Source: Salinibacter altiplanensis
GTDB lineage: Bacteria; Bacteroidota; Rhodothermia; Rhodothermales; Salinibacteraceae
Direction: 5' to 3'
Length of the DNA stretch: 64,000 bases
Assembly (NCBI RefSeq): GCF_002894645.1
Contig: NZ_NCQY01000009.1
Span: 314,433-378,432 of the forward strand
Made by a program: the position numbers and the translations under genes. The notes beneath the pieces were generated by a model. The model saw only the letters and a list, made by a program, of their open reading frames with translations. It had not been told where the DNA came from and ran no database searches. Position 1 is the stretch's first letter, and each line of letters starts with the position of its first letter. Shown here in pieces: positions 5,230 to 59,586 of the stretch.

Positions 5230-7128
5230 CTACGCCGGTGTCGGCTCACTCAGCAGGGCCGTCGCCTCCTCTAGAATTTCTTCGGCCCGGAACGGTCGGC
5301 CCTGGATCTTGTGGAGGGGCGCGAAGCCACAGCGGGGGTACTGGTCGCGCAGGACGCGAATGAGCTGTCCATTGTTGAGCTCGGGGACGAGGACGTGGTC
5401 GAAGCGGCCGAGTACATCCCCGAGGTCTGCCGGCAGGGGCCAGACGTGGCGGAGGACGACGCTGCCAACGCGCAGATTCTGCTCCCTTGCGCGCTCGGTG
5501 GCTTCCTCGATCGCCCCCTTCGTGGAGCCCCACCCGACCACGAGCAGGTCGCCGTCGGCCGGCCCGGACACTTGCGTCGGGGGAATGTCCTGCGTCACGT
5601 TCTGCACCTTCTGCGCCCGCACCTCCACCATCTTCTGGTGATTCTCAGCGTCGTAGGAGACATCGCCCGTCTGGTGCTCTTTCTCCAATCCGCCGAGGCG
5701 GTGCTCCAGGTCGGGCGTGCCGGGACGGGCCCAGGCGCGGGCCAGCGTCTCCGGGTCGCGCACGTAGGGCAGGAACTGGTCGTTGCCGTCCTGGTCCTTG
5801 TGCATCGTGCGCTCGGTGGCCTCCGTCTCGAACTCGACGTTGAACGCCGGGAGCGCGTCGGTATCGGGGATGCGCCATGCCTCCGAGCCGTTGCCGAGGT
5901 AGCCGTCGGCCAGCAGGATGACGGGCGTGCGGTATTTGGTAGCGATGCGACACGCCTCGTAGGCGGTGTGGAAGCAGTCGCCCGGCGAGGTGGCGGCGAG
6001 CACCGGGAGCGGCGCCTCCCCGTTGCGGCCGTACACGGCCTGCAGCAGGTCGCCCTGCTCCGGCTTGGTGGGCAGTCCGGTAGAGGGCCCGCCGCGCTGC
6101 ATGTCGATGATGACGAGCGGCAGCTCCGTCATGACACCGAGCCCGATCGTCTCCGTCTTGAGGGCCACGCCGGGGCCGGAGGTGGCGCACACGCCGAGGT
6201 CGCCCCCAAAGCTGGCCCCGAGCGCCGAGGTCGCGGCCGCAATCTCGTCTTCGGCCTGAAAGGTGATGACCCCGAAATTCTTGTGCTCACTCAGCTCGTG
6301 GAGGATGTCCGACGCCGGCGTGATGGGGTAGGAGCCGTAGAAGAGGCGGAGGTCGCTCTTCACACTCGCGGCCACCAGCCCCAGGGCCAGCGCCTCTGCC
6401 CCCCGCACCGCCCGGTAGGTGCCGGGCGTCATCGCGGCCGCGTTGACCTCGTACCGCGTCCCAATGGCGTCGACGGTTTCTCCGTAGTGAAATCCTTTTT
6501 CGAGGACCTTTAGGTTCGCATCTCGAATCGCCGGCTTGTCCCCAAACTTCTCTCGGATCCACTCCTGGGCGGGCTCAACCGGCCGGGAGTACATCCAGAG
6601 GGCCAGCCCAAGGGCGAACATGTTTTTCGACCGGTCGACCTTCTGCAGCGACAGGTCGGTGTCCGACAAGGCCTTCCGGGTGATGTCGGTGAGCGGCACT
6701 TCCTGCACCCGGTAATCGTCCAGCGTGCCGTCCGTAAGCGGGTTGTAATCGAGGTCGGCCTTCGTGAGGTCCTGTTCCTCGAAGGCATTGGTGTTGACAA
6801 TAATGGTGCCGCCCGGTCGCACGCGGTGCAGGTGCACCTTCAGCGCCGCCGCGTTCATGGCCACGAGCAGATCCACCTTTTCGCCCGGTGTGCGTACCTC
6901 CTCGGCGCCGAAGTGGAGCTGAAAGGCACTTACGCCGAAGGTGGTGCCCGCCGGGGCCCGAATCTCGGCGGGATAGTCCGGCAGCGTGGCCAGGTCGTTT
7001 TGGGCGTAGGCAGAAGCAAGGGTGAATTGTGACCCGGTAATCTGCATTCCGTCCCCCGAGTCCCCGGCAAAGAGAACTGTGGCCTCGGGAATTTCCTTCG
7101 TGTCCGTCGTGTCGCTGGGCGCGCTCAT
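5230..7128 (-). CDS. korA: 2-oxoacid:ferredoxin oxidoreductase, fused gamma-alpha subunit
   Basis: This 632-residue subunit fuses the gamma domain (residues about 15-200, GDSGDGMQITGSQF and PAEIRAPAGTTFGVS) to the alpha pyrimidine-binding domain (LFYGSYPITPASDILHELS, then the ATSGPGVALKTETIGL and QRGGPSTGLPTKPEQGDL motifs) and a C-terminal transketolase-like domain (LLVVGWGSTKGAIEEA). This gamma-alpha fusion is the KorA/OorA arrangement of aerobic and microaerobic bacteria. It lies directly upstream of korB and is very probably in the same operon. ATG at 7126-7128 starts a typical short acidic leader. Confidence 0.94.
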   Translation of the reverse strand: MSAPSDTTDTKEIPEATVLFAGDSGDGMQITGSQFTLASAYAQNDLATLPDYPAEIRAPAGTTFGVSAFQLHFGAEEVRTPGEKVDLLVAMNAAALKVHLHRVRPGGTIIVNTNAFEEQDLTKADLDYNPLTDGTLDDYRVQEVPLTDITRKALSDTDLSLQKVDRSKNMFALGLALWMYSRPVEPAQEWIREKFGDKPAIRDANLKVLEKGFHYGETVDAIGTRYEVNAAAMTPGTYRAVRGAEALALGLVAASVKSDLRLFYGSYPITPASDILHELSEHKNFGVITFQAEDEIAAATSALGASFGGDLGVCATSGPGVALKTETIGLGVMTELPLVIIDMQRGGPSTGLPTKPEQGDLLQAVYGRNGEAPLPVLAATSPGDCFHTAYEACRIATKYRTPVILLADGYLGNGSEAWRIPDTDALPAFNVEFETEATERTMHKDQDGNDQFLPYVRDPETLARAWARPGTPDLEHRLGGLEKEHQTGDVSYDAENHQKMVEVRAQKVQNVTQDIPPTQVSGPADGDLLVVGWGSTKGAIEEATERAREQNLRVGSVVLRHVWPLPADLGDVLGRFDHVLVPELNNGQLIRVLRDQYPRCGFAPLHKIQGRPFRAEEILEEATALLSEPTPA

Positions 7129-8310: not shown

Positions 8311-8694
8311 ATGATTAGCTACGCCTCCACCACACGCGGCATCACGGTCACCGTGCGTCCCATTTATCTGGACGAGCCGTCCGATCTTCTGGAGCGTGAG
8401 TTTGCGTTCGGATATGCCATCCGGATCGAAAACGACAGCGCAAACGAGGTCCAACTGCTCCGGCGCCGGTGGATCATCGAGGAGAGCAATGGCAGCCGAC
8501 AGGACCTGACCGGCGACGGCACGCTTCGTCCCCACCCAGTGATCGCCCCCGGGGACATGCACGTCCACGACGGATCGTGCAGGATCGAATCATTCAACGG
8601 AACTGTGCAGGGCAACTACCTCGTCCAGCGGGCCGACGGGGAGCAGTTTCGCGTGTCGGTGCCTCCCTTTCCCCTGCACGCCGCCGCGAATTAG
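8311..8694 (+). CDS. apaG: ApaG family protein
   Basis: This 127-residue single-domain protein has an immunoglobulin-like beta-sandwich fold. Family markers are VTVRPIYLDEPS, FGYAIRIENDS, VQLLRRRWIIEESNG and the Gly/Pro-rich PHPVIAPGDMHVHDG loop, ending VSVPPFPLHAA. ApaG is linked to divalent-cation resistance and to Ap4A/pyrophosphate binding; the exact role is unsettled. ATG at 8311 (MISYASTTRG) fits the usual family start; the frame is open upstream to 8221. It is divergent from cysH across 268 bases that must carry both promoters. Confidence 0.93.
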   Translation: MISYASTTRGITVTVRPIYLDEPSDLLEREFAFGYAIRIENDSANEVQLLRRRWIIEESNGSRQDLTGDGTLRPHPVIAPGDMHVHDGSCRIESFNGTVQGNYLVQRADGEQFRVSVPPFPLHAAAN

Positions 8695-8708
8695 GTTGAA
8701 GGGGGCAC

Positions 8709-8744
8709 GTTGAAGGTGAAACAGTGGGGCTTTCGACCTTCAAA
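8709..8744. terminator. Inverted repeat, probable bidirectional terminator
   Basis: TTGAAGGT (8710-8717) and ACCTTCAA (8736-8743) form an 8-bp stem between two convergent genes: apaG ending at 8694 and the minus-strand gene ending at 8766. The position fits a shared terminator, although no long T tract follows on either strand. The sequence GCACGTTGAAGGT recurs just after kbl at about 56018. Confidence 0.4.
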
Positions 8745-8765
8745 CCTTGCCCCTTTCCGGCGCAG

Positions 8766-9053
8766 TCAACTGGCCACGACCTCAATCTCGATGTCGTACT
8801 CCTCGGTCGTAAGCGTGATCGTCTGGTTTTCGTTGGCGAGGCCGTAGTCCGTAATCGCGTCCGGGAAGACATCGTCCGGCGCACTCATGTTGAACAGCGC
8901 GTCGGCCACCACCTGCCAGTCCTCCGGCGTGAGGTGCACTGTGGCGTCACGCCCCTCGGCCACCATGGGGGCGTAGTCGAGCACCTTCCCAAGGTGGTTG
9001 ACCGCCTGCTTGAGGTGCTTGTTCTCGGGGATGTCGGAGTCAATGTTGGCCAT
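8766..9053 (-). CDS. Small acidic hypothetical protein
   Basis: A 95-residue protein, highly acidic and without signal peptide or membrane segment, consistent with a halophile cytosolic protein. It begins MANIDSDIPENKHLKQAVNHLGKVLDY and ends TLTTEEYDIEIEVVAS. Predicted structure is two or three helices followed by a beta hairpin. I recognise no family. Codon use matches its neighbours, so it is probably a real gene. It is convergent with apaG and divergent from thyA. Confidence 0.7.
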   Translation of the reverse strand: MANIDSDIPENKHLKQAVNHLGKVLDYAPMVAEGRDATVHLTPEDWQVVADALFNMSAPDDVFPDAITDYGLANENQTITLTTEEYDIEIEVVAS

Positions 9054-10429: not shown

Positions 10430-11701
10430 TTAGAATGCAATCTGCATTCGCGTGAGGACCAGGGTCTCAGCGTCGGGGGGAGACGCCCCCCCGGCGGCCT
10501 CGAACCAGGTGCGCTCCACCCCTAGCATGAAGCGCACCAGAGCGTTGGGGTACCAGCTGACGGTAAGCCCCCAGGCGGTGGCCTGGGACGCCGCGGTGGG
10601 GCTTGCGAACGTCGGGAACGCCTCGTCGTCGAGGGTTGCGCCGTGGAGGCGCGCGCCCAGCTCGATCGCCCCCGTTCCGCGCTCGGCCCCAAACGGGTCG
10701 CGCGGCGCCACCGTCCCCTCTCGGGCCTTCTCTCCTGTCACCACCACGGCGGCACTGGCCTGCCACGCACGGTGTGTGAGTGTTTCCGTCGCCGGCCCGT
10801 GCCGTACCGCCTCAGTCGTCAGTGTGTACTCCCCCAGCAGCTCCACCGGACCGGTGTAGAACCGGGCCTGGGGGGCCAGCCGCCACCGCCGCCCGTCGGC
10901 CCGCACCCCATCCCGGTATCCGAAAAACGACTGCCGGCCGGTCGTGCTCAGTCCCGTGAGCGCCGGCGTTGCCTCTGTGCCCGTCACCGTTCCCACCGTG
11001 CCGGCCACCCCAACGCCGAGTCCCTCGAGCCCCCCGCCTGTTCCCGCAAACGGCGTCGCAAAGAGCCGCCCGACCCCCTCCTTTGCGTCGTCGACGTCGG
11101 CCCCCGGCTCCGACGCGCCCGGAGTCCCGTTGAAAAGCCCAACCGCATACCGCAGCCGCTCCGTCCCCACGGTGCCGGACAGCGAGATGCCCACGTCCCG
11201 CCCCGGCACCAGGCCCGCCGGGAAGCCCCGTTCCACGTGCATGAGGCCGGTCGTGGACGACAGGGTCTCCAGCCCCACCGGCACCTTGAACCGCCCCATG
11301 CGCAGGGTCAGGGCCGGGGCGAACCGCGCCTCGACAAACGCATCGTCGATCTCGGGACCCCCGGTCCCAAAGTCGCTCCGGATGCTGAACGCAAACCGAT
11401 CGTACACGCGCCCCTGAAACCGGGGCCGCACGCGCCGAAGGAGAAACCCCTCCGCCCCGGGCGGGGCCGTCTGCTCCAGGAAGAAGCGCGCGTCGGCGTA
11501 GAGATCGCCCCGCATGCGAAGCGCAAACGCGCCGTCCTCGGAGGCCACTCGAAAGCCCTCTTCGCCGACCTGCACCGCCCCACTTGCCCCTGGCTCAGCG
11601 ACCGTCTGTGCTCTCCCTTCGTGTCCGAATCCGACGAGCCCCATCGCTGTGAGAAAGACGACGAGCAGACGGGATTGGGCGGCAGTCATGGAAAACGGCA
11701 A
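10430..11701 (-). CDS. Outer-membrane porin, OprP/OprO (phosphate-selective) type
   Basis: This 423-residue outer-membrane beta-barrel protein has an N-terminal signal peptide cleaved around residue 31 (FGHEGRA-QT). The barrel start shows the family pattern: RMRGDLYADARFF, then LLRRVRPRFQGRVYDRFAFS, DDAFVEARFAPALTLRMGRFKVPVGLE, and GRDVGISLSGTVG, all hallmarks of the OprO/OprP superfamily. It ends in Phe, as expected for recognition by the BAM complex. Phosphate specificity is not shown; many relatives are general anion or sugar porins. A MITE-like element abuts its stop codon, and the gene upstream (15-11.8 kb) also encodes an outer-membrane barrel. Confidence 0.85.
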   Translation of the reverse strand: MPFSMTAAQSRLLVVFLTAMGLVGFGHEGRAQTVAEPGASGAVQVGEEGFRVASEDGAFALRMRGDLYADARFFLEQTAPPGAEGFLLRRVRPRFQGRVYDRFAFSIRSDFGTGGPEIDDAFVEARFAPALTLRMGRFKVPVGLETLSSTTGLMHVERGFPAGLVPGRDVGISLSGTVGTERLRYAVGLFNGTPGASEPGADVDDAKEGVGRLFATPFAGTGGGLEGLGVGVAGTVGTVTGTEATPALTGLSTTGRQSFFGYRDGVRADGRRWRLAPQARFYTGPVELLGEYTLTTEAVRHGPATETLTHRAWQASAAVVVTGEKAREGTVAPRDPFGAERGTGAIELGARLHGATLDDEAFPTFASPTAASQATAWGLTVSWYPNALVRFMLGVERTWFEAAGGASPPDAETLVLTRMQIAF

Positions 11702-11824: not shown

Positions 11825-14773
11825 TTAAAATGGAAATGCCGTCTGCACGCGGTAGTAGAGGTGCACACCGTCACGCGTCCCGAGTTCGGCGGCGGGCTGT
11901 GCCACCCCCAGGGCATGCCCGACGCGCACGCCGAACAGGCGCAGGGCGTTTTTCACCTCTGCGCCCGTTCCGAGCTGCTGCACACCGCCCCGTAGGTCTG
12001 CGTTCCGCCATACCATTCCCCCGTCCACGAACGCCGAGAGCGTCGTGTGCCCGAGGGCGACGAGCCCGAGCACGTCCGTCCGCAAACTGGAGGCGAGAGG
12101 CATCCGGTACTCGGCGCGCCCAAAGGCCACCCGGTTGCCCAACACGTACCGTCGGTAGCCGCGCACCCGCTCGGCATTCCCCAACGAAAACGGCACGGTG
12201 CCCGGCAGGGGCAGGTCGACCGCGTCGTAGCGCGAGAGACCGACGTAGTCCTGAGGAAACGACGCCCCGGTCTGGGCCTGTAGCCGTCCATAGAGGGAGA
12301 GGCGATGCGCCCCGACGCTCGGGAGCACCGAGTACCCCGCCACGTCGCCGCGCAGAAACGAGGTGTCGCCGCCCAGCACCTCGGCCGCACCGGTGGCACG
12401 GAGCCGGAGGCCCCATCCGTCCAGCGGATGCACGAGCGCGTGCCGGTACGGGGGCCGCTTGCGACGCGTAAACTGAAGGCGCAGGCTCGCCTGCTGGCCG
12501 GCCTGGGGCGGTGAGAGAGGGCCGAGCGACGTGAAGTCGCCGCGGTCGAGCGGGTCAAGGTCGGCGTAGCGCAGCCGGGCCGACACGGACGTGGAGACGT
12601 ATGGACGCACCCGCCAGTCGAGCGGCCACCGCGCCGTGAGGTCGCCCCCCGTCCGGTCCTCCACGAGCAGGTCGTTGCCGTAGATGCGGGCCGATGACGA
12701 CGCGCTGAACACTGTGAGTCCGAGCGTGGGAGCCAGTTGCCGGTTCAGATACGACGCCACCCCCTCGCTTTTCGTCCCCGGTTCTGGGAAGGAGAGGCGT
12801 CCGACCGCGTTGAGCGTATGTTTCCCTAGGGGCTCGGTCCAGGACGTCCCCCCCGCAATGCCAAAGTCATTGGTCGACGAGTAGTAGGGCAGCCCCAGCG
12901 AGGCCCGATGCGTGAGGTTGGAGAGGGCATCGTACGCCGATCGAGCCTCGATGAGCGACGGGTCTGGATCCATCTGTCGCGGAATGGTGCGGGGCGGCTT
13001 GGTCGTGGTCCAGTCGGCATACGGCCCCGGCACCGAGGGCTCGGCGGCCCGGGCCGTGCGATTCGCGGGAATCCGAAAGGCGCCGTCGCGCGCCTTCGTG
13101 AGGGTCGTGGAGGTGACGAGGGCCTCATCCGCCGCAGACTCGGCGGCATTGGTTCGGAAGGACGAGTCGACCGGCACCCAGTCGTGAACGGTGGCGCCCC
13201 GGACGAGGCGGGTGGCGCGGCGGTGCGTGTCGGTCGGCAGGTCGTACACGAAGGCATTGGGGACGCCGTCGCGGAGCGAGGTGTACGCCAGCTGGGCACC
13301 GTCAGGGCTCCAGATCGGCCGCCGCTCATCGGAGGCCGGATCGGTGACGGCCGCGGACGCGCCGGTGTTCAGGTCGTAGACGACGAGCTCGCGCTCTCCC
13401 TCCGCAATCCGGGCGAAGGCCAGGGTGTCCCGAGACGGGTGCCACTGAAGGCCCGTGATCTGTGTGTCGTCCTCGTGGTTGGTAACTCGACGGGTGCGCC
13501 CCGTCGCCTCGGTTCGCACGTGTACGTCGGCCGTGCCGTCCGCCGTCGCGACGAACGCGAGGCGCTTGCCGTCCGGCCCATACGTAGGCGCCGACGTGCG
13601 GCGGCCGTAGGTGAGGCGCCGCTCGTTGTCTCCATCGGCACCAACCACGAACAGATCGTCCGCGAGCGACCCGTGGGCGGCCCGCGTCTGCCGGCTGAAG
13701 GCGATTCGCGTTCCGTCGGGATGCCACGCCACGGACGGCTCAATGGCCCCCTCCGCCACGTCTTTGATCCTGCCCGACGAGCGGTCGATCACGTGTAGCC
13801 GTTGCACCGGATGCTCCGAGGACAGGCGGGAGAGCACGGCGACACGCGACGTATCGGGGCTGTACGCGAGATCTTCTACGTACTGCCCGGGCACGTTCAG
13901 CGTGTCGGTCCGGAGCGAGTCGAGCGTTTCGAGCTGGCCGGCGAGCGTGTTGTAGTAGACGTTCACGTCGCGCCGCCATTGCTCGTAAAATGCCTCGTAG
14001 GACTGCCCGACGGTCGCCTGGAAGGCATCCTCGAAGTCATGCACCTTCGCGAGGCCGAACAGCGCGTCCCTCTTGTGGTGGAGCAGGTCCGTGAGCGTCG
14101 AGTCGCCGTGCTGCTGGGCGAAGTAGCGCACCTGACTGTGGCCAGAAGCGTACAGGAGCTGTCCGTTCCGGAGCGACCGGCCGTCGTCGTAGGCGAGGGC
14201 ATCGTCGAGGACGGCGGCGCGGAGCCAGCGCTCACCCCGCTGGGCGTTCCAGGTCTCAGCCTGGTACTGCGCGAGCCCTTCGGTCCAGACCCGTGGGAAC
14301 GAGCCGCCGAGGGCGAAGGCCCAGAGTCCCAGGTCCGTCCGGACGGCCTCGTAGTGAAAGAGGTGCGTCAGTTCGTGGGCCAGCACGAGGCGCAGCCACG
14401 GGGAGGGGCCGGTGAAGGCACGCGCCCAGTCGTTCGTGTTCACCCAGATGTCGGTGTATCCGGTCCCAAACGGCACCGCAAAGCCATTCACGAGGGCGTC
14501 CTGGTCACTCAAGTACACGCGGATCCGCTCGTCGAACGTCACGTCGAGGGTGGCCGACAGGGTGTCGTAGGTGGCCTCCGCAATCGGTGCGGCCTCGGCG
14601 GCAATGTCGTCGAGGCGCGCAGGGTGCATGATTTCAAAATGCTCCGTTGCCGCCACGCGCCAGTCAATCTCGGGGTGGTTGCGGCCGGTCACCGTGCTGA
14701 AGCTCTGGGCCTGCCCGGGGAGCGTCACGCCCCCGAGGAGCAAAAGACAGCAGAAGACAGTGCGGATCGTCAT
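11825..14773 (-). CDS. Exported metalloprotease / TolB-like beta-propeller / outer-membrane beta-barrel protein
   Basis: A 982-residue protein in three parts. A signal peptide (residues 1-23, ending GQAQ) leads into a gluzincin-type peptidase domain with the zinc motif AHELTHLFHYE (HELTH at 133-137). The middle carries repeated WD40/TolB-like propeller blades (for example SPDTSRVAVLSR, WHPDGTRIAFSRQ, YGPDGKRLAFVA, WSPDGAQLAYTS). The C-terminal 330 residues are alternating beta strands like BamA/D15 surface-antigen barrels and end in a terminal Phe. Such fusions are known in Bacteroidota and relatives, but the substrate is unknown. ATG at 14771-14773 is chosen because it begins the signal peptide; the open frame extends 92 codons further without signal character. 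Confidence 0.83.
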   Translation of the reverse strand: MTIRTVFCCLLLLGGVTLPGQAQSFSTVTGRNHPEIDWRVAATEHFEIMHPARLDDIAAEAAPIAEATYDTLSATLDVTFDERIRVYLSDQDALVNGFAVPFGTGYTDIWVNTNDWARAFTGPSPWLRLVLAHELTHLFHYEAVRTDLGLWAFALGGSFPRVWTEGLAQYQAETWNAQRGERWLRAAVLDDALAYDDGRSLRNGQLLYASGHSQVRYFAQQHGDSTLTDLLHHKRDALFGLAKVHDFEDAFQATVGQSYEAFYEQWRRDVNVYYNTLAGQLETLDSLRTDTLNVPGQYVEDLAYSPDTSRVAVLSRLSSEHPVQRLHVIDRSSGRIKDVAEGAIEPSVAWHPDGTRIAFSRQTRAAHGSLADDLFVVGADGDNERRLTYGRRTSAPTYGPDGKRLAFVATADGTADVHVRTEATGRTRRVTNHEDDTQITGLQWHPSRDTLAFARIAEGERELVVYDLNTGASAAVTDPASDERRPIWSPDGAQLAYTSLRDGVPNAFVYDLPTDTHRRATRLVRGATVHDWVPVDSSFRTNAAESAADEALVTSTTLTKARDGAFRIPANRTARAAEPSVPGPYADWTTTKPPRTIPRQMDPDPSLIEARSAYDALSNLTHRASLGLPYYSSTNDFGIAGGTSWTEPLGKHTLNAVGRLSFPEPGTKSEGVASYLNRQLAPTLGLTVFSASSSARIYGNDLLVEDRTGGDLTARWPLDWRVRPYVSTSVSARLRYADLDPLDRGDFTSLGPLSPPQAGQQASLRLQFTRRKRPPYRHALVHPLDGWGLRLRATGAAEVLGGDTSFLRGDVAGYSVLPSVGAHRLSLYGRLQAQTGASFPQDYVGLSRYDAVDLPLPGTVPFSLGNAERVRGYRRYVLGNRVAFGRAEYRMPLASSLRTDVLGLVALGHTTLSAFVDGGMVWRNADLRGGVQQLGTGAEVKNALRLFGVRVGHALGVAQPAAELGTRDGVHLYYRVQTAFPF

Positions 14774-54706: not shown

Positions 54707-54813
54707 GGGCGGGCCTTCTCCCCTCAACATCCGGCCCCGCTCCTCCCGCTTGCCACTCCTTGGCAGCCCCCCAACTGCTCGTTTGGACCCCAACCCGATT
54801 CTCCCATACCGCC

Positions 54814-56010
54814 ATGCCCATGACCGACGACGTTGCGGCCGACTTCCGGCAGACCCTGCAGGAAATTAAAGACGCCGGCACCTACAACGAGGAACGCGTC
54901 ATCACCTCGCAGCAGGACGCCGACATCGAAGTTGAGGGCGGCCAGCACGTCATCAACTTCTGTGCAAACAACTACCTTGGGCTCGCCAACCACCCGGAGA
55001 TTATGGACGCCGCCAAGCGAGGCGTCGACCGGTACGGCTTCGGCGTGGCCAGCGTCCGCTTCATCTGCGGGACCCAATCGGTACACAAGGACCTGGAGCA
55101 CGCCCTGTCCGACTTCCACGAGACGGACGACACGATCCTGTACAACTCGTGCTTCGATGCCAACACCGGCCTTTTCGAAACCATTCTCGGGGAGGAGGAC
55201 GCCATCATCAGCGACGCGCTGAACCACGCCTCCATCATCGACGGCATCCGGCTCTGCACGGCCGACCTGCACGTCTTTGACCACGGCGACATGGACGACC
55301 TGGAGGCGAAGCTGCAAAATGCACAGGACGCGGAGACCCGCTTGATCGCCACCGACGGCGTATTCTCGATGGACGGGGACGTGGCCAAGCTCGACGAGAT
55401 GTGCCGCCTGGCCGACACGTACGACGCGCTCGTGATGGTCGACGAGTGCCACGCCACCGGCTTCATGGGCGAGGGGGGCCGCGGCGCCAGCGAGGCGAGG
55501 GGCGTGCTCGACGAGGTCGATATCATCACCTCCACGCTCGGCAAGGCCCTCGGCGGCGCTACCGGCGGCTTTACGACCGGCCGGCAGGAGATCATCGACC
55601 TGCTGCGGCAGGAGTCCCGCCCCTACCTCTTCTCCAACGCCATCGCCCCGATGATCGCCAACGCCAGCCTCAAGGTGCTGGAGATGCTGCAGGAGAGCGG
55701 CGAGCGGCGCGAGCAGATCTGGGAGAATGCCCGCTACTTCCGGAACGAGATGGAGGAACGGGGCTTCGAGATCAAGTCAGGCGACCACCCCATCGTGCCC
55801 ATCATGTTCTACGACGCGAAGACGAGCGGGGCCATCGCCGACGAGCTGCTCGACCGCGGCATCTACGTCATCAGCTTCAGCTACCCCGTGGTGCCGGAGG
55901 GCGAGGCCCGCATCCGCGTCCAGATGTCCGCCGCCCACTCGCAGGACCAGCTCGACCGCGCCATCGACGCGTTCACGGAGGTCGGCCGCAAGCACGACGT
56001 AATTGACTAA
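54814..56010 (+). CDS. kbl: Glycine C-acetyltransferase (2-amino-3-ketobutyrate CoA ligase)
   Basis: A 398-residue PLP enzyme of the alpha-oxoamine synthase family. Features are [62 protein letters not shown], and the PLP Lys in [15 protein letters not shown]. It converts 2-amino-3-ketobutyrate and CoA to glycine and acetyl-CoA. The partner dehydrogenase lies immediately upstream on the same strand. ATG at 54814 ([10 protein letters not shown]) is chosen; the frame is open 18 codons earlier but those codons lack homology. Right after it the DNA becomes distinctly less GC-rich. Confidence 0.95.
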
Positions 56011-56181
56011 CTCAGGTGCACGTTGAAGGTTAGGTAGCATGTCGGTGCTGTGAGAACTGCCCTTTCAGGAGGGAGAAGCCATGCCTTCTGACTGCTCCCA
56101 TCAAAAGTTTTGAGGACCGACACATCAAGCCCACGCCTTAAGAGTCCATAGTTGAATTCTCACGCTACTGTCAGTGCTCGT

Positions 56182-57936
56182 ATGGAATCGGATGAGACCG
56201 AGACTGTTGAACTGTCCCTAGATACGACGGACGACGCCTCCCCGGTGAAAGTGAGACTCAAGCCTTTGACAGTCATCTTAGGTACGAATGGAACTGGAAA
56301 ATCCACACTTCTTCGACAGATGGCAGGTTCTGAGAATCCTCGTCGTGGCGGGGGGAAGTTAGAGGCGGCTGGCTTTGAGCCTGTCACATTTGTGGAAGGG
56401 GGTCGCATTGCTGACGTACCCAATAATTTGCGGATACGTAGCCACGACTCCTTTGATGAAGGACTCTCAGAGTCTTGGGGAAATGATATTCGACGCGCCA
56501 AGCGGGGAGAGTTACGCTCTCGAACCAATCAAATATTTGACGCTCTCAGACGTGAGACCAGAAAAGTTAAAGAGCAGCATTCTGATCAGGTGAACGAAGC
56601 TCAGAGGAAAGGGCTCGAAGCTCCTGAAAGGGAAGAGCCCCCGTTAGATAGAGCATTCAGGCTCTTCTCCGATATATTTCCAGCAATTGAGCTAAAAGCA
56701 GACTCGGCTTCAAACGAACTCAAAGCATCGAAATACGGAAATACATATGACGCTTCGGACCTCTCAGACGGTGAAAGGCAGGTGTTAACCCTTCTTGCAG
56801 ATCTCGCCGTTCATGGGGCAGGAGAAGCGGTACTCGTAGACGAACCAGAACTCAACTTGAATTCAGGATTGGCAATCAGGGTCTGGGAGACGATAGAGAA
56901 GGAAGTGCTCACCCGTTTCCAGGAGACATACTTTGTGTACGCAACTCACTCATTGAGCTTTGCCTCCCGACCAGCTGTAGACCAAGTCATAGTTCTGGAC
57001 AACAGAGCAAAAGTTGCTGCCTGCGTTGATTCCCCATCTACCCTTCTGAAGAATGAGACGATTACCTCTGAAGATTATCTCGGTGCTTTAACTACCATCG
57101 TGGCTACCCCAGCTGCCCTGATTACGGAAGGAGAAGATGAGTCCGTGGATCGGGCGTTTTACCAGTGGATTATAGGAAAAGAGTGGGGGCGAGAGCGGAA
57201 CGGGGTACCGGTAGTTCCTATGCAGGGCAGTTCAAGCGTGAGAGGCGCAGTCAAGCAGGAGGGAGTCTGGGATGAACTCCGAGGCAACACTCAACTAGTA
57301 GGCATAACTGACCGAGATTACTTAAGCGACTCTCAACTGAGGGACTTGGAGGGTGGAAACCTAGTGGTTCTTGATTTGCACGAAGTGGAGTCCCACTTCT
57401 GTCTTCCAAGAGTCCTCTGCGATTTGGCAGAGGAGCGCGTTGTGGAAGACCAGCCTACCGAGGAGGATATTGAGGAGAAGATTCTGGAGTACGCAGCAAG
57501 CGAAAAAGTGGCTGTTGCCGCGAAGCGTGTATCGGAAAGCACAAGATTGTCGCTTTCTGTTTCTGTAACGAATGAGCAGCTCGACGAGGCGGACTCTACC
57601 GAAGAGGTAGCAGACATACTGTTAGGAGCCGCAGAAGATAATCTCGAGGCCGCAGAGAGTCGGCTCGGTAGTGACCAGACGAAGGATACTTTCGAGCAAG
57701 AGCTACACAGGCTGGATGAGGCTATTGAAAACCGCAATGTGGAAGAAATCCTCAAGCTGTGTCCGGGGAAGGAACTGCTCAAGCGTTTAGCACACTTTGC
57801 AGGCTGTTCTTCCAACGATCACATCATGAGAGCAGCTGAAGAGCATCTTGACCCATCAGACTATCCGAATCTCAGGGGTCTAAGAGACGAATTGCGCACT
57901 GCACTCGATGTGACACCTTCAGTCCCTACATCTTAG
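56182..57936 (+). CDS. Fused ABC-type ATPase and DUF4435 (TOPRIM-like) protein, candidate PARIS-like defence gene
   Basis: A 584-residue protein in a lower-GC segment (a sampled line is 47%). The ATPase domain has Walker A GTNGTGKST (34-42), signature LSDGERQVL (194-202), Walker B AVLVDEPELNLN (216-227) and the switch His in VYATHSLSF (252-260). From about 311 a DUF4435/TOPRIM-like domain begins: Glu in LITEGEDESVDRAFY, Asp in GITDRDYLSD, Glu in LDLHEVESHF. The order matches AriA plus AriB of the PARIS anti-phage system fused in one chain; an OLD-family nuclease is the alternative. ATG 56182 is preferred over an in-frame TTG at 56152. It is flanked by housekeeping genes, with no partner gene beside it. 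Confidence 0.82.
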   Translation: MESDETETVELSLDTTDDASPVKVRLKPLTVILGTNGTGKSTLLRQMAGSENPRRGGGKLEAAGFEPVTFVEGGRIADVPNNLRIRSHDSFDEGLSESWGNDIRRAKRGELRSRTNQIFDALRRETRKVKEQHSDQVNEAQRKGLEAPEREEPPLDRAFRLFSDIFPAIELKADSASNELKASKYGNTYDASDLSDGERQVLTLLADLAVHGAGEAVLVDEPELNLNSGLAIRVWETIEKEVLTRFQETYFVYATHSLSFASRPAVDQVIVLDNRAKVAACVDSPSTLLKNETITSEDYLGALTTIVATPAALITEGEDESVDRAFYQWIIGKEWGRERNGVPVVPMQGSSSVRGAVKQEGVWDELRGNTQLVGITDRDYLSDSQLRDLEGGNLVVLDLHEVESHFCLPRVLCDLAEERVVEDQPTEEDIEEKILEYAASEKVAVAAKRVSESTRLSLSVSVTNEQLDEADSTEEVADILLGAAEDNLEAAESRLGSDQTKDTFEQELHRLDEAIENRNVEEILKLCPGKELLKRLAHFAGCSSNDHIMRAAEEHLDPSDYPNLRGLRDELRTALDVTPSVPTS

Positions 57937-58041
57937 GAGGCTGAGCCCTGGAAGTAGTTTGGTGGGCCAGTCTCGGTTTGCTTCTGCTATGTAACCTACC
58001 CCCAATACTTTGACCTTTGACTTTCGATTCACTCTGATTTT

Positions 58042-59586
58042 ATGAGACACACTCACCGGCTTCCCTCAGTTCTCTGCATCCTCACTGCCCTGCTGCTCCT
58101 GGCCGTTCCGGTGAGTACCGTCCACGCCCAAGACGAAAACTCGGTCGGCCCTACACGCACCCTCCCGCCCGACACGGCGATCACAAAGACCGATCGCGTG
58201 ACGGTGAAGGGCCAGGAGGTGCCCTACGAGGTGACGACCGGCACGCAGCCGGTGTACGGCGACGACGACAGGGCCACCGCCTCGCTCCACTACACCTACT
58301 ACCGCCGCTCGGACGTCGAGAACCGTGCGGAGCGCCCGCTCATGGTCTCCTTCAACGGCGGCCCTGGCTCCGGCTCCCTCTGGATGCACCTCGGCTACAC
58401 CAGCCCCAAGCACCTCCTCATCAGCGACGAGGGATACCCCGTGCAGCCGTACGGCGTCGAGGACAACAACCAGTCCATCATCGACGTGGCGGACATCGTG
58501 TACGTCAATCCCGTCAACACCGGCTTCTCCCGCGTGCTCGGTGAGGACACGGACGCGGAGCAGTTCTTTGGGGTGAACGCCGACGTGGACTACCTGGCGG
58601 ACTGGATCGACACGTTCATTTCGCGGCACGACCGGTGGCGCTCCCCGAAGTACCTGATTGGGGAGAGCTACGGCACCACCCGCGTCGCGGGCCTGGCCGG
58701 CGAGCTCCAAAACAGCCACTGGACGTACCTGAACGGGGTCATCCTCGTCTCTCCTACCGGCCTTGGGATGGAGCCGGCCGGCCCCTCCCCGCGCTCCGAG
58801 GCGCTCAAGCTGCCCTACTACGCGGCCACGGCCTGGTACCACGAGCAGCTGCCCGACGCCCTCCAGAACCGGGACCTCTCCGCCCTTCTGTCCGAGGTCG
58901 AGGACTATACCGTCGAGGAGTACATCCCGGCCGTCACGCGGGGCGGCTTTATCGACGACGCCCGCCGGCAGACCGTGGCCCAACAGGTGGCCCGCTACGC
59001 GGGTCTCTCCGAACAGTTTGTGCGCAACCACAACCTGGCCGTCCCCTCGGATGCCTTTTGGAAGGAGCTCCTCCAGGACGAGGGCCACACCGTGGGCCGC
59101 CTCGACTCGCGCTATAGGGGCGTGGACGTGAAAAATGCCGGGGACAGCTACGACTACCCGGCGGAGCTCACCGCCTGGAATCACGCTTTCACCCCGGCCA
59201 TCAACCACTACCTCCGCGATGAACTGGGCTTTGCGACGGACCTGCAGTACAACACATTCGGCTCCGTCTACCCCTGGGACGACGACAACAACCGTACCGG
59301 GGCCCAACTCCGCGAGGCAATGGCCCAAAACCCGTACCTACACGTCATGGTGCAGTCCGGCTACTACGACGGGGCCACGGACTACTTTTCGGCCAAGTAC
59401 GTGATGTGGAATCTCGGCACGCGAGAGACGATGCGCGACCGGCTTCGCTTCGAGGGCTACCGGAGCGGGCACATGATGTACCTGCGCTCGGAGGACCTGG
59501 CGGCCTCCAACGAGGACATCCGCACGTTCATCCAGAACTCGATTCCGGACGAGGGGACACCTGCCCGATATGGTCCGGATCAGTAG
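58042..59586 (+). CDS. Exported S10 serine carboxypeptidase
   Basis: A 514-residue exported peptidase with a signal peptide (residues 1-29, ending VHAQDE). The alpha/beta-hydrolase core shows MVSFNGGPGSGSLWMHLG (oxyanion), the catalytic Ser in LIGESYGTTRVAG, Asp in DGATDYFSAKYV, and His in GYRSGHMMYLR. S10 enzymes remove C-terminal residues at acidic pH; bacterial members are periplasmic or surface-bound. It starts 105 bases after the ATPase gene, in an AT-rich leader that belongs to the foreign segment. Confidence 0.92.
   Translation: MRHTHRLPSVLCILTALLLLAVPVSTVHAQDENSVGPTRTLPPDTAITKTDRVTVKGQEVPYEVTTGTQPVYGDDDRATASLHYTYYRRSDVENRAERPLMVSFNGGPGSGSLWMHLGYTSPKHLLISDEGYPVQPYGVEDNNQSIIDVADIVYVNPVNTGFSRVLGEDTDAEQFFGVNADVDYLADWIDTFISRHDRWRSPKYLIGESYGTTRVAGLAGELQNSHWTYLNGVILVSPTGLGMEPAGPSPRSEALKLPYYAATAWYHEQLPDALQNRDLSALLSEVEDYTVEEYIPAVTRGGFIDDARRQTVAQQVARYAGLSEQFVRNHNLAVPSDAFWKELLQDEGHTVGRLDSRYRGVDVKNAGDSYDYPAELTAWNHAFTPAINHYLRDELGFATDLQYNTFGSVYPWDDDNNRTGAQLREAMAQNPYLHVMVQSGYYDGATDYFSAKYVMWNLGTRETMRDRLRFEGYRSGHMMYLRSEDLAASNEDIRTFIQNSIPDEGTPARYGPDQ

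Follow-up and report, generated by a model that had tools for sequence, protein, structure and literature searches.

What is the gene that stands alone between kbl and an S10-like serine carboxypeptidase gene in Salinibacter altiplanensis, how did it come to be there, and how might its product act? The window, the whole stretch of 64,000 nucleotides analysed here, carries at 56182..57936 on the + strand an uninterrupted open reading frame of 584 amino acids with an ATG start. An alternative in-frame TTG at 56152 would give 594 amino acids; the first ATG is at 56182. On the left lies kbl (2-amino-3-ketobutyrate CoA ligase; 54760..56010, + strand), conserved in 12 of 13 genus genomes, and on the right the S10-like serine carboxypeptidase gene (58042..59586, + strand), with intergenic stretches at 56011..56151 and 57937..58041. 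The isolated position, the low GC and a reading as a one-protein PARIS-like defence system had all been put forward in a preliminary description of this DNA. We judge it probable that a PARIS system in one gene (fused AriA-AriB) was gained here by horizontal transfer and acts in the manner proposed below. The reading is based on matches to AriAB and AriB profiles, conserved TOPRIM residues, low GC, presence in one of 13 genomes with sites that lack the gene, relatives on plasmids and viral contigs, a nearest relative beside a type II restriction-modification pair, and the literature on fusions.

Over the gene the GC content drops to 0.49-0.52, from about 0.60-0.70 in the surroundings; of the window ORFs longer than 250 amino acids that were compared, none is lower in GC (0.508) or in GC3 (0.49). 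Only the window's own genome, among the 13 genus genomes searched, has the gene, in a single copy. The kbl-S10 interval was readable in 11 of the 12 others, and in all 11 kbl is directly adjacent to the S10 peptidase gene, with no fused gene between them; the unaligned stretch is about 170-280 nt in ten of these sisters and 633 nt in one. Neither conservation at this locus in relatives nor a host-like composition was found, and the fused gene is a recent acquisition. The insertion ends are known only approximately, from where sister alignments stop (about 56004-56031 on the left) and resume (within the S10 gene on the right, at about 58120-58162 in most sisters and at 58070 in L012). The upstream stretch begins with some 20 nt of native kbl-downstream sequence, shared with the sister genomes, and continues as foreign sequence. 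No convincing direct or inverted repeats were found bounding the insert, an RNA family search at the locus gave no credible match, and the DNA fold of the upstream region was no better than that of shuffles (z -0.40).

Two further observations were made at this site. The segment 56022-56075, next to the acquired gene, is similar to short repeats dispersed in the genomes of two other members of the genus: one (G007) has two copies with 85-87% identity, and in the other (G008) a looser pattern matches six times, with at least one match paired as an inverted repeat. The segment may be a small mobile or palindromic repeat that lies at the edge of the insertion. The 633-nt interval (L017:2691-3323, in G008) holds a different small ORF of roughly 110 amino acids, which by eye resembles a ribbon-helix-helix antitoxin-type protein, and the kbl-S10 interval may accept inserts repeatedly.

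The domains and catalytic residues of the protein are those of fused AriAB. The N-terminal part is a complete ABC-type ATPase, as the preliminary description had claimed, with all motifs encoded on the + strand and conserved in an alignment of 49 relatives. G34, G39 and K40 of the Walker A motif GTNGTGKS (residues 34-41; 56281..56304) are found in 48 of the 49, the remaining row being gapped. In the ABC signature LSDGERQ (residues 194-200; 56761..56781), S195 and G197 are each present in 48 and E198 in 46, and in the Walker B motif VLVDEPE (residues 217-223; 56830..56850), D220 and E221 are each present in 48. The switch histidine, His256 (56947..56949), occurs in all 49. The TOPRIM-like nuclease core (residues 312-406; 57115..57399, + strand) combines conserved acids with predicted alternating strands and helices. 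Its metal-binding Glu...DxD...E pattern comprises E316 (57127-57129; 49/49), which is followed by G, D377 (57310-57312; 48/49) and D379 (57316-57318; 49/49) in the expected D-x-D spacing, and E403 (57388-57390), where the column has E in 43 of 49 rows and D in three, making it a conserved acid. Of the two C-terminal candidates named earlier, E403 thus stands and E401 does not, the latter being conserved in just 29 of the same 49 relatives. Such conservation supports a functional active site, although, the 49 relatives having been gathered by whole-protein similarity, it is not an independent test of the family. The core is followed by the all-helical C-terminal part of the AriB/DUF4435 region (residues 407-577; 57400..57912, + strand), supported by the AriB model alignment and predicted helices.

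The best match in the defence library was one of the fused AriAB models present in PADLOC, PDLC02982 (99.5 bits, E 4.6e-29, residues 118-545). Another AriAB model, PDLC02981, gave 58.1 bits; the best competing PADLOC models, mad3 (43.9 bits), NsnB (43.0) and PtuA (42.4), match the ATPase only. These AriAB models are not necessarily identical to the profiles of Rousset et al., whose own score thresholds are 20 for the AAA_21 type and 80 for the AAA_15 type (PMC9122126). The alignment to the PADLOC AriB model reaches about residue 538. When the C-terminal 285 residues were searched alone, PADLOC returned AriAB (E 1.4e-10) and AriB (E 2.4e-7), the sole further match below E 1 being a weak one to Csm5 (E 0.004), and Pfam returned only DUF4435; no OLD or Gabija/GajA TOPRIM model was found in either library at E up to 1. 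The C-terminal half therefore falls within AriB/AriAB and DUF4435, where it had been placed from the letters, and nowhere outside. The Pfam AAA_21 score is above its cut-off (39.1 against 27 bits), whereas DUF4435 scores 16.6 bits with the whole protein and 19 bits with the C-terminus alone, both below the cut-off of 27, indicating a divergent protein. DUF4435 was found (E up to 0.01) in eight of the nine full-length proteins of the alignment, with a best E of 2.7e-32. A whole-genome search with Pfam DUF4435 missed the fused gene, so default Pfam screening would overlook it. Since single-gene PARIS fusions are already described (Rousset et al. 2022, PMC9122126; also stated in PMC12409363), the merged forms consisting of AAA_21 or AAA_15 plus DUF4435 (PMC9122126), the gene can be named a PARIS (AriAB) fusion by its sequence, and the early one-protein PARIS-like reading was right.

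A single-sequence AlphaFold2 model was unusable (mean pLDDT 38). The model from nine sequences (mean pLDDT 73, pTM 0.47) has an alternating strand-helix core at 312-396, with predicted elements at 312-316, 322-331, 344-347, 350-367, 372-376, 383-389 and 394-396 and acidic residues at or just past strand ends, and then a helical C-terminus with block pLDDT mostly 80-96. In a whole-chain Foldseek search with it, the leading matches were ATPases of the PtuA (retron/Septu) and OLD kinds; OLD 6p74 came at rank 27, and TM-scores were about 0.3. AriA and AriB were absent among the 50 matches listed, which counts against a fused PARIS; the search, against PDB and BFVD, was dominated by the ATPase domain and does not discriminate. 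By sequence, the ATPase matched the solved AriA chains (8ux9, 8v45) as well as retron PtuA, OLD and further ABC ATPases. A profile built from the C-terminal halves found no AriB chains among PDB sequences; its top matches there, RIG-I and others, were rejected as not credible.

The protein could instead be a class 1 OLD-like nuclease in the style of P2 Old or GajA, that is, a one-protein ATPase-TOPRIM enzyme cutting phage or host DNA directly and not acting via tRNA. The domain order is that of OLD and GajA, 6p74 appears in the fold search, the whole-protein profile matches 6p74 (E 4.3e-8) and GajA (E 1.7e-6) over a region that runs from the ATPase into the beginning of the TOPRIM, and a review of OLD proteins calls it unclear whether fused AriAB proteins make up an OLD class of their own (PMC10568477). 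However, the nuclease half by itself finds AriAB, AriB and DUF4435, with Csm5 weakly, and no OLD or Gabija TOPRIM, and we regard this explanation as unlikely.

The relatives of the protein are distant and scattered. Of 394 genomes sampled across the phylum, 9 (the window's own among them) matched at E 1e-8 or better, and every relative found is only roughly 20-33% identical, a large divergence that counts against the fused-PARIS reading. A single-protein query found no close relatives in genome contigs or viral contigs, and a two-sequence alignment query found none in viral contigs; a broader alignment was required. Fused relatives were found in 46 plasmid records, including ones from Campylobacter, Escherichia, Salmonella and Rhizobium, and relatives were found on 31 viral or prophage contigs, some of these matches covering the ATPase only; nearly all are roughly 20-30% identical to the window protein. 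The nearest relative found (L002; 33% identity) comes from another family of the same class and is flanked on either side by a copy of a repeat of about 130 nt, the copies being near-identical and having long inverted arms. Its array (L040:5565-13667, G077 C1) has repeats at 6414-6542, 8689-8819 and 10592-10751 and a 35-nt piece of a fourth copy at 5565; the repeats separate genes for a cytosine methyltransferase and a type II restriction enzyme, an NYN-domain gene and the fused AriAB; a gene matching PADLOC PDC-M38A/PD-Lambda-5 lies in the same stretch. A tyrosine recombinase gene at 12825-13667 is oriented away from the array. As its product scores below the integron-integrase cut-offs (TIGR02249, 205 against 265 bits; NF040815, 218.6 against 220), the array can be called no more than "integron-like". 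A tree of 18 fusions groups the window protein with L002 in a long-branch clade of their own (support 100/99); 14 typical fusions form another clade (97/96), and two longer fusions (L006 and L009) stand apart. The tree program warns of long branches meeting, and the depth of the split leading to the window protein and L002 is therefore uncertain.

A housekeeping or decaying ATPase with no role in defence, kept by chance after transfer, would fit a single copy in one genus genome and the outcome of a simple sigma-70 scan, which gave no promoter-like match for the fused gene and so also counts against a working PARIS fusion. Yet the open frame is full-length, all catalytic residues are intact and homologues occur on plasmids and viral contigs, and we consider this explanation very unlikely. 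A PtuA/Septu- or retron-type ATPase with an acquired TOPRIM-like domain and a partner encoded elsewhere is the least probable explanation, for although the best ATPase matches other than AriA include PtuA models and structures, neither an HNH PtuB nor an RT lies beside the gene, whose neighbours kbl and S10 peptidase are conserved in the genus, and the full-length AriAB match beats every PtuA match (99.5 against 42.4 bits).

For the fused PARIS reading, a course of action can be drawn from the two-gene E. coli system, from which we infer phage defence, trigger, tRNA substrate and growth arrest alike. In E. coli PARIS, a hexamer of AriA holds AriB until Ocr of phage, or a protein like it, sets AriB free; the freed AriB forms dimers and is a two-metal TOPRIM ribonuclease that cuts tRNA-Lys and others (PMC11455837, PMC12409363). 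By homology the fusion would work in the same way up to the trigger step: the N-terminal ABC ATPase would be sensor and assembly platform and would hold the TOPRIM/DUF4435 nuclease at the C-terminus in an inactive state for as long as no phage product, perhaps a DNA-mimicking anti-restriction protein, is bound. The nuclease might then cut host tRNA with two metal ions and stop translation, so that the infected cell would cease growth before phage release. Because toxin and sensor are covalently linked, release of free AriB cannot occur unchanged. Activation could take place in cis or through cleavage of the linker; purely by reasoning from the joined chain, it is probable that the protein changes conformation, or that TOPRIM domains pair anew inside the oligomer, and not that free AriB is released. 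It is possible, although we hold it rather doubtful, that fused PARIS has a separate deep branch, made up of the window protein and L002, whose toxin is activated in cis while still attached to its sensor; if true, this would be a second activation mode for the PARIS family. A search of the window's genome for HsdR gave only fragments under the family cut-off and no intact HsdR, and a guard role over a type I restriction-modification system is therefore not supported in this genome. Two of these short HsdR-like fragments are adjacent (G000:C3:229216-229603) and are possibly what is left of a decayed type I restriction gene.

The gene offers a clean, recently gained example of one-protein PARIS, the site without it being readable in 11 sister genomes. 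The only unusual question that it poses is how a permanently joined toxin is activated, and the fusion makes this question testable: AriB of E. coli leaves the AriA ring and dimerises, and the fusion must differ. Compared with retron/Septu PtuA, which has a related ABC-type ATPase domain and came top in the fold search, the window protein has no PtuB/HNH or RT partner and brings its own nuclease domain. With OLD and Gabija GajA it shares an ABC ATPase and a TOPRIM domain in one chain, but its TOPRIM half alone has no match to their models. With the two-gene PARIS of E. coli B185 (PMC9122126, PMC12409363) it shares an ABC ATPase sensor and a TOPRIM DUF4435 nuclease; it differs in being one polypeptide, whose effector cannot leave the sensor as AriB does. 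The likeness to single-gene PARIS fusions (AriAB) extends to the two domains, joined in the same order in a single protein, the best profile match, the catalytic residues and the patchy distribution on mobile elements, while low identity (about 20-33%), a weak response to Pfam DUF4435 and the branch shared with L002 set it apart from the published ones. Judged by its sequence, the fused AriAB gene is a distant new addition to the PARIS fusions already published.
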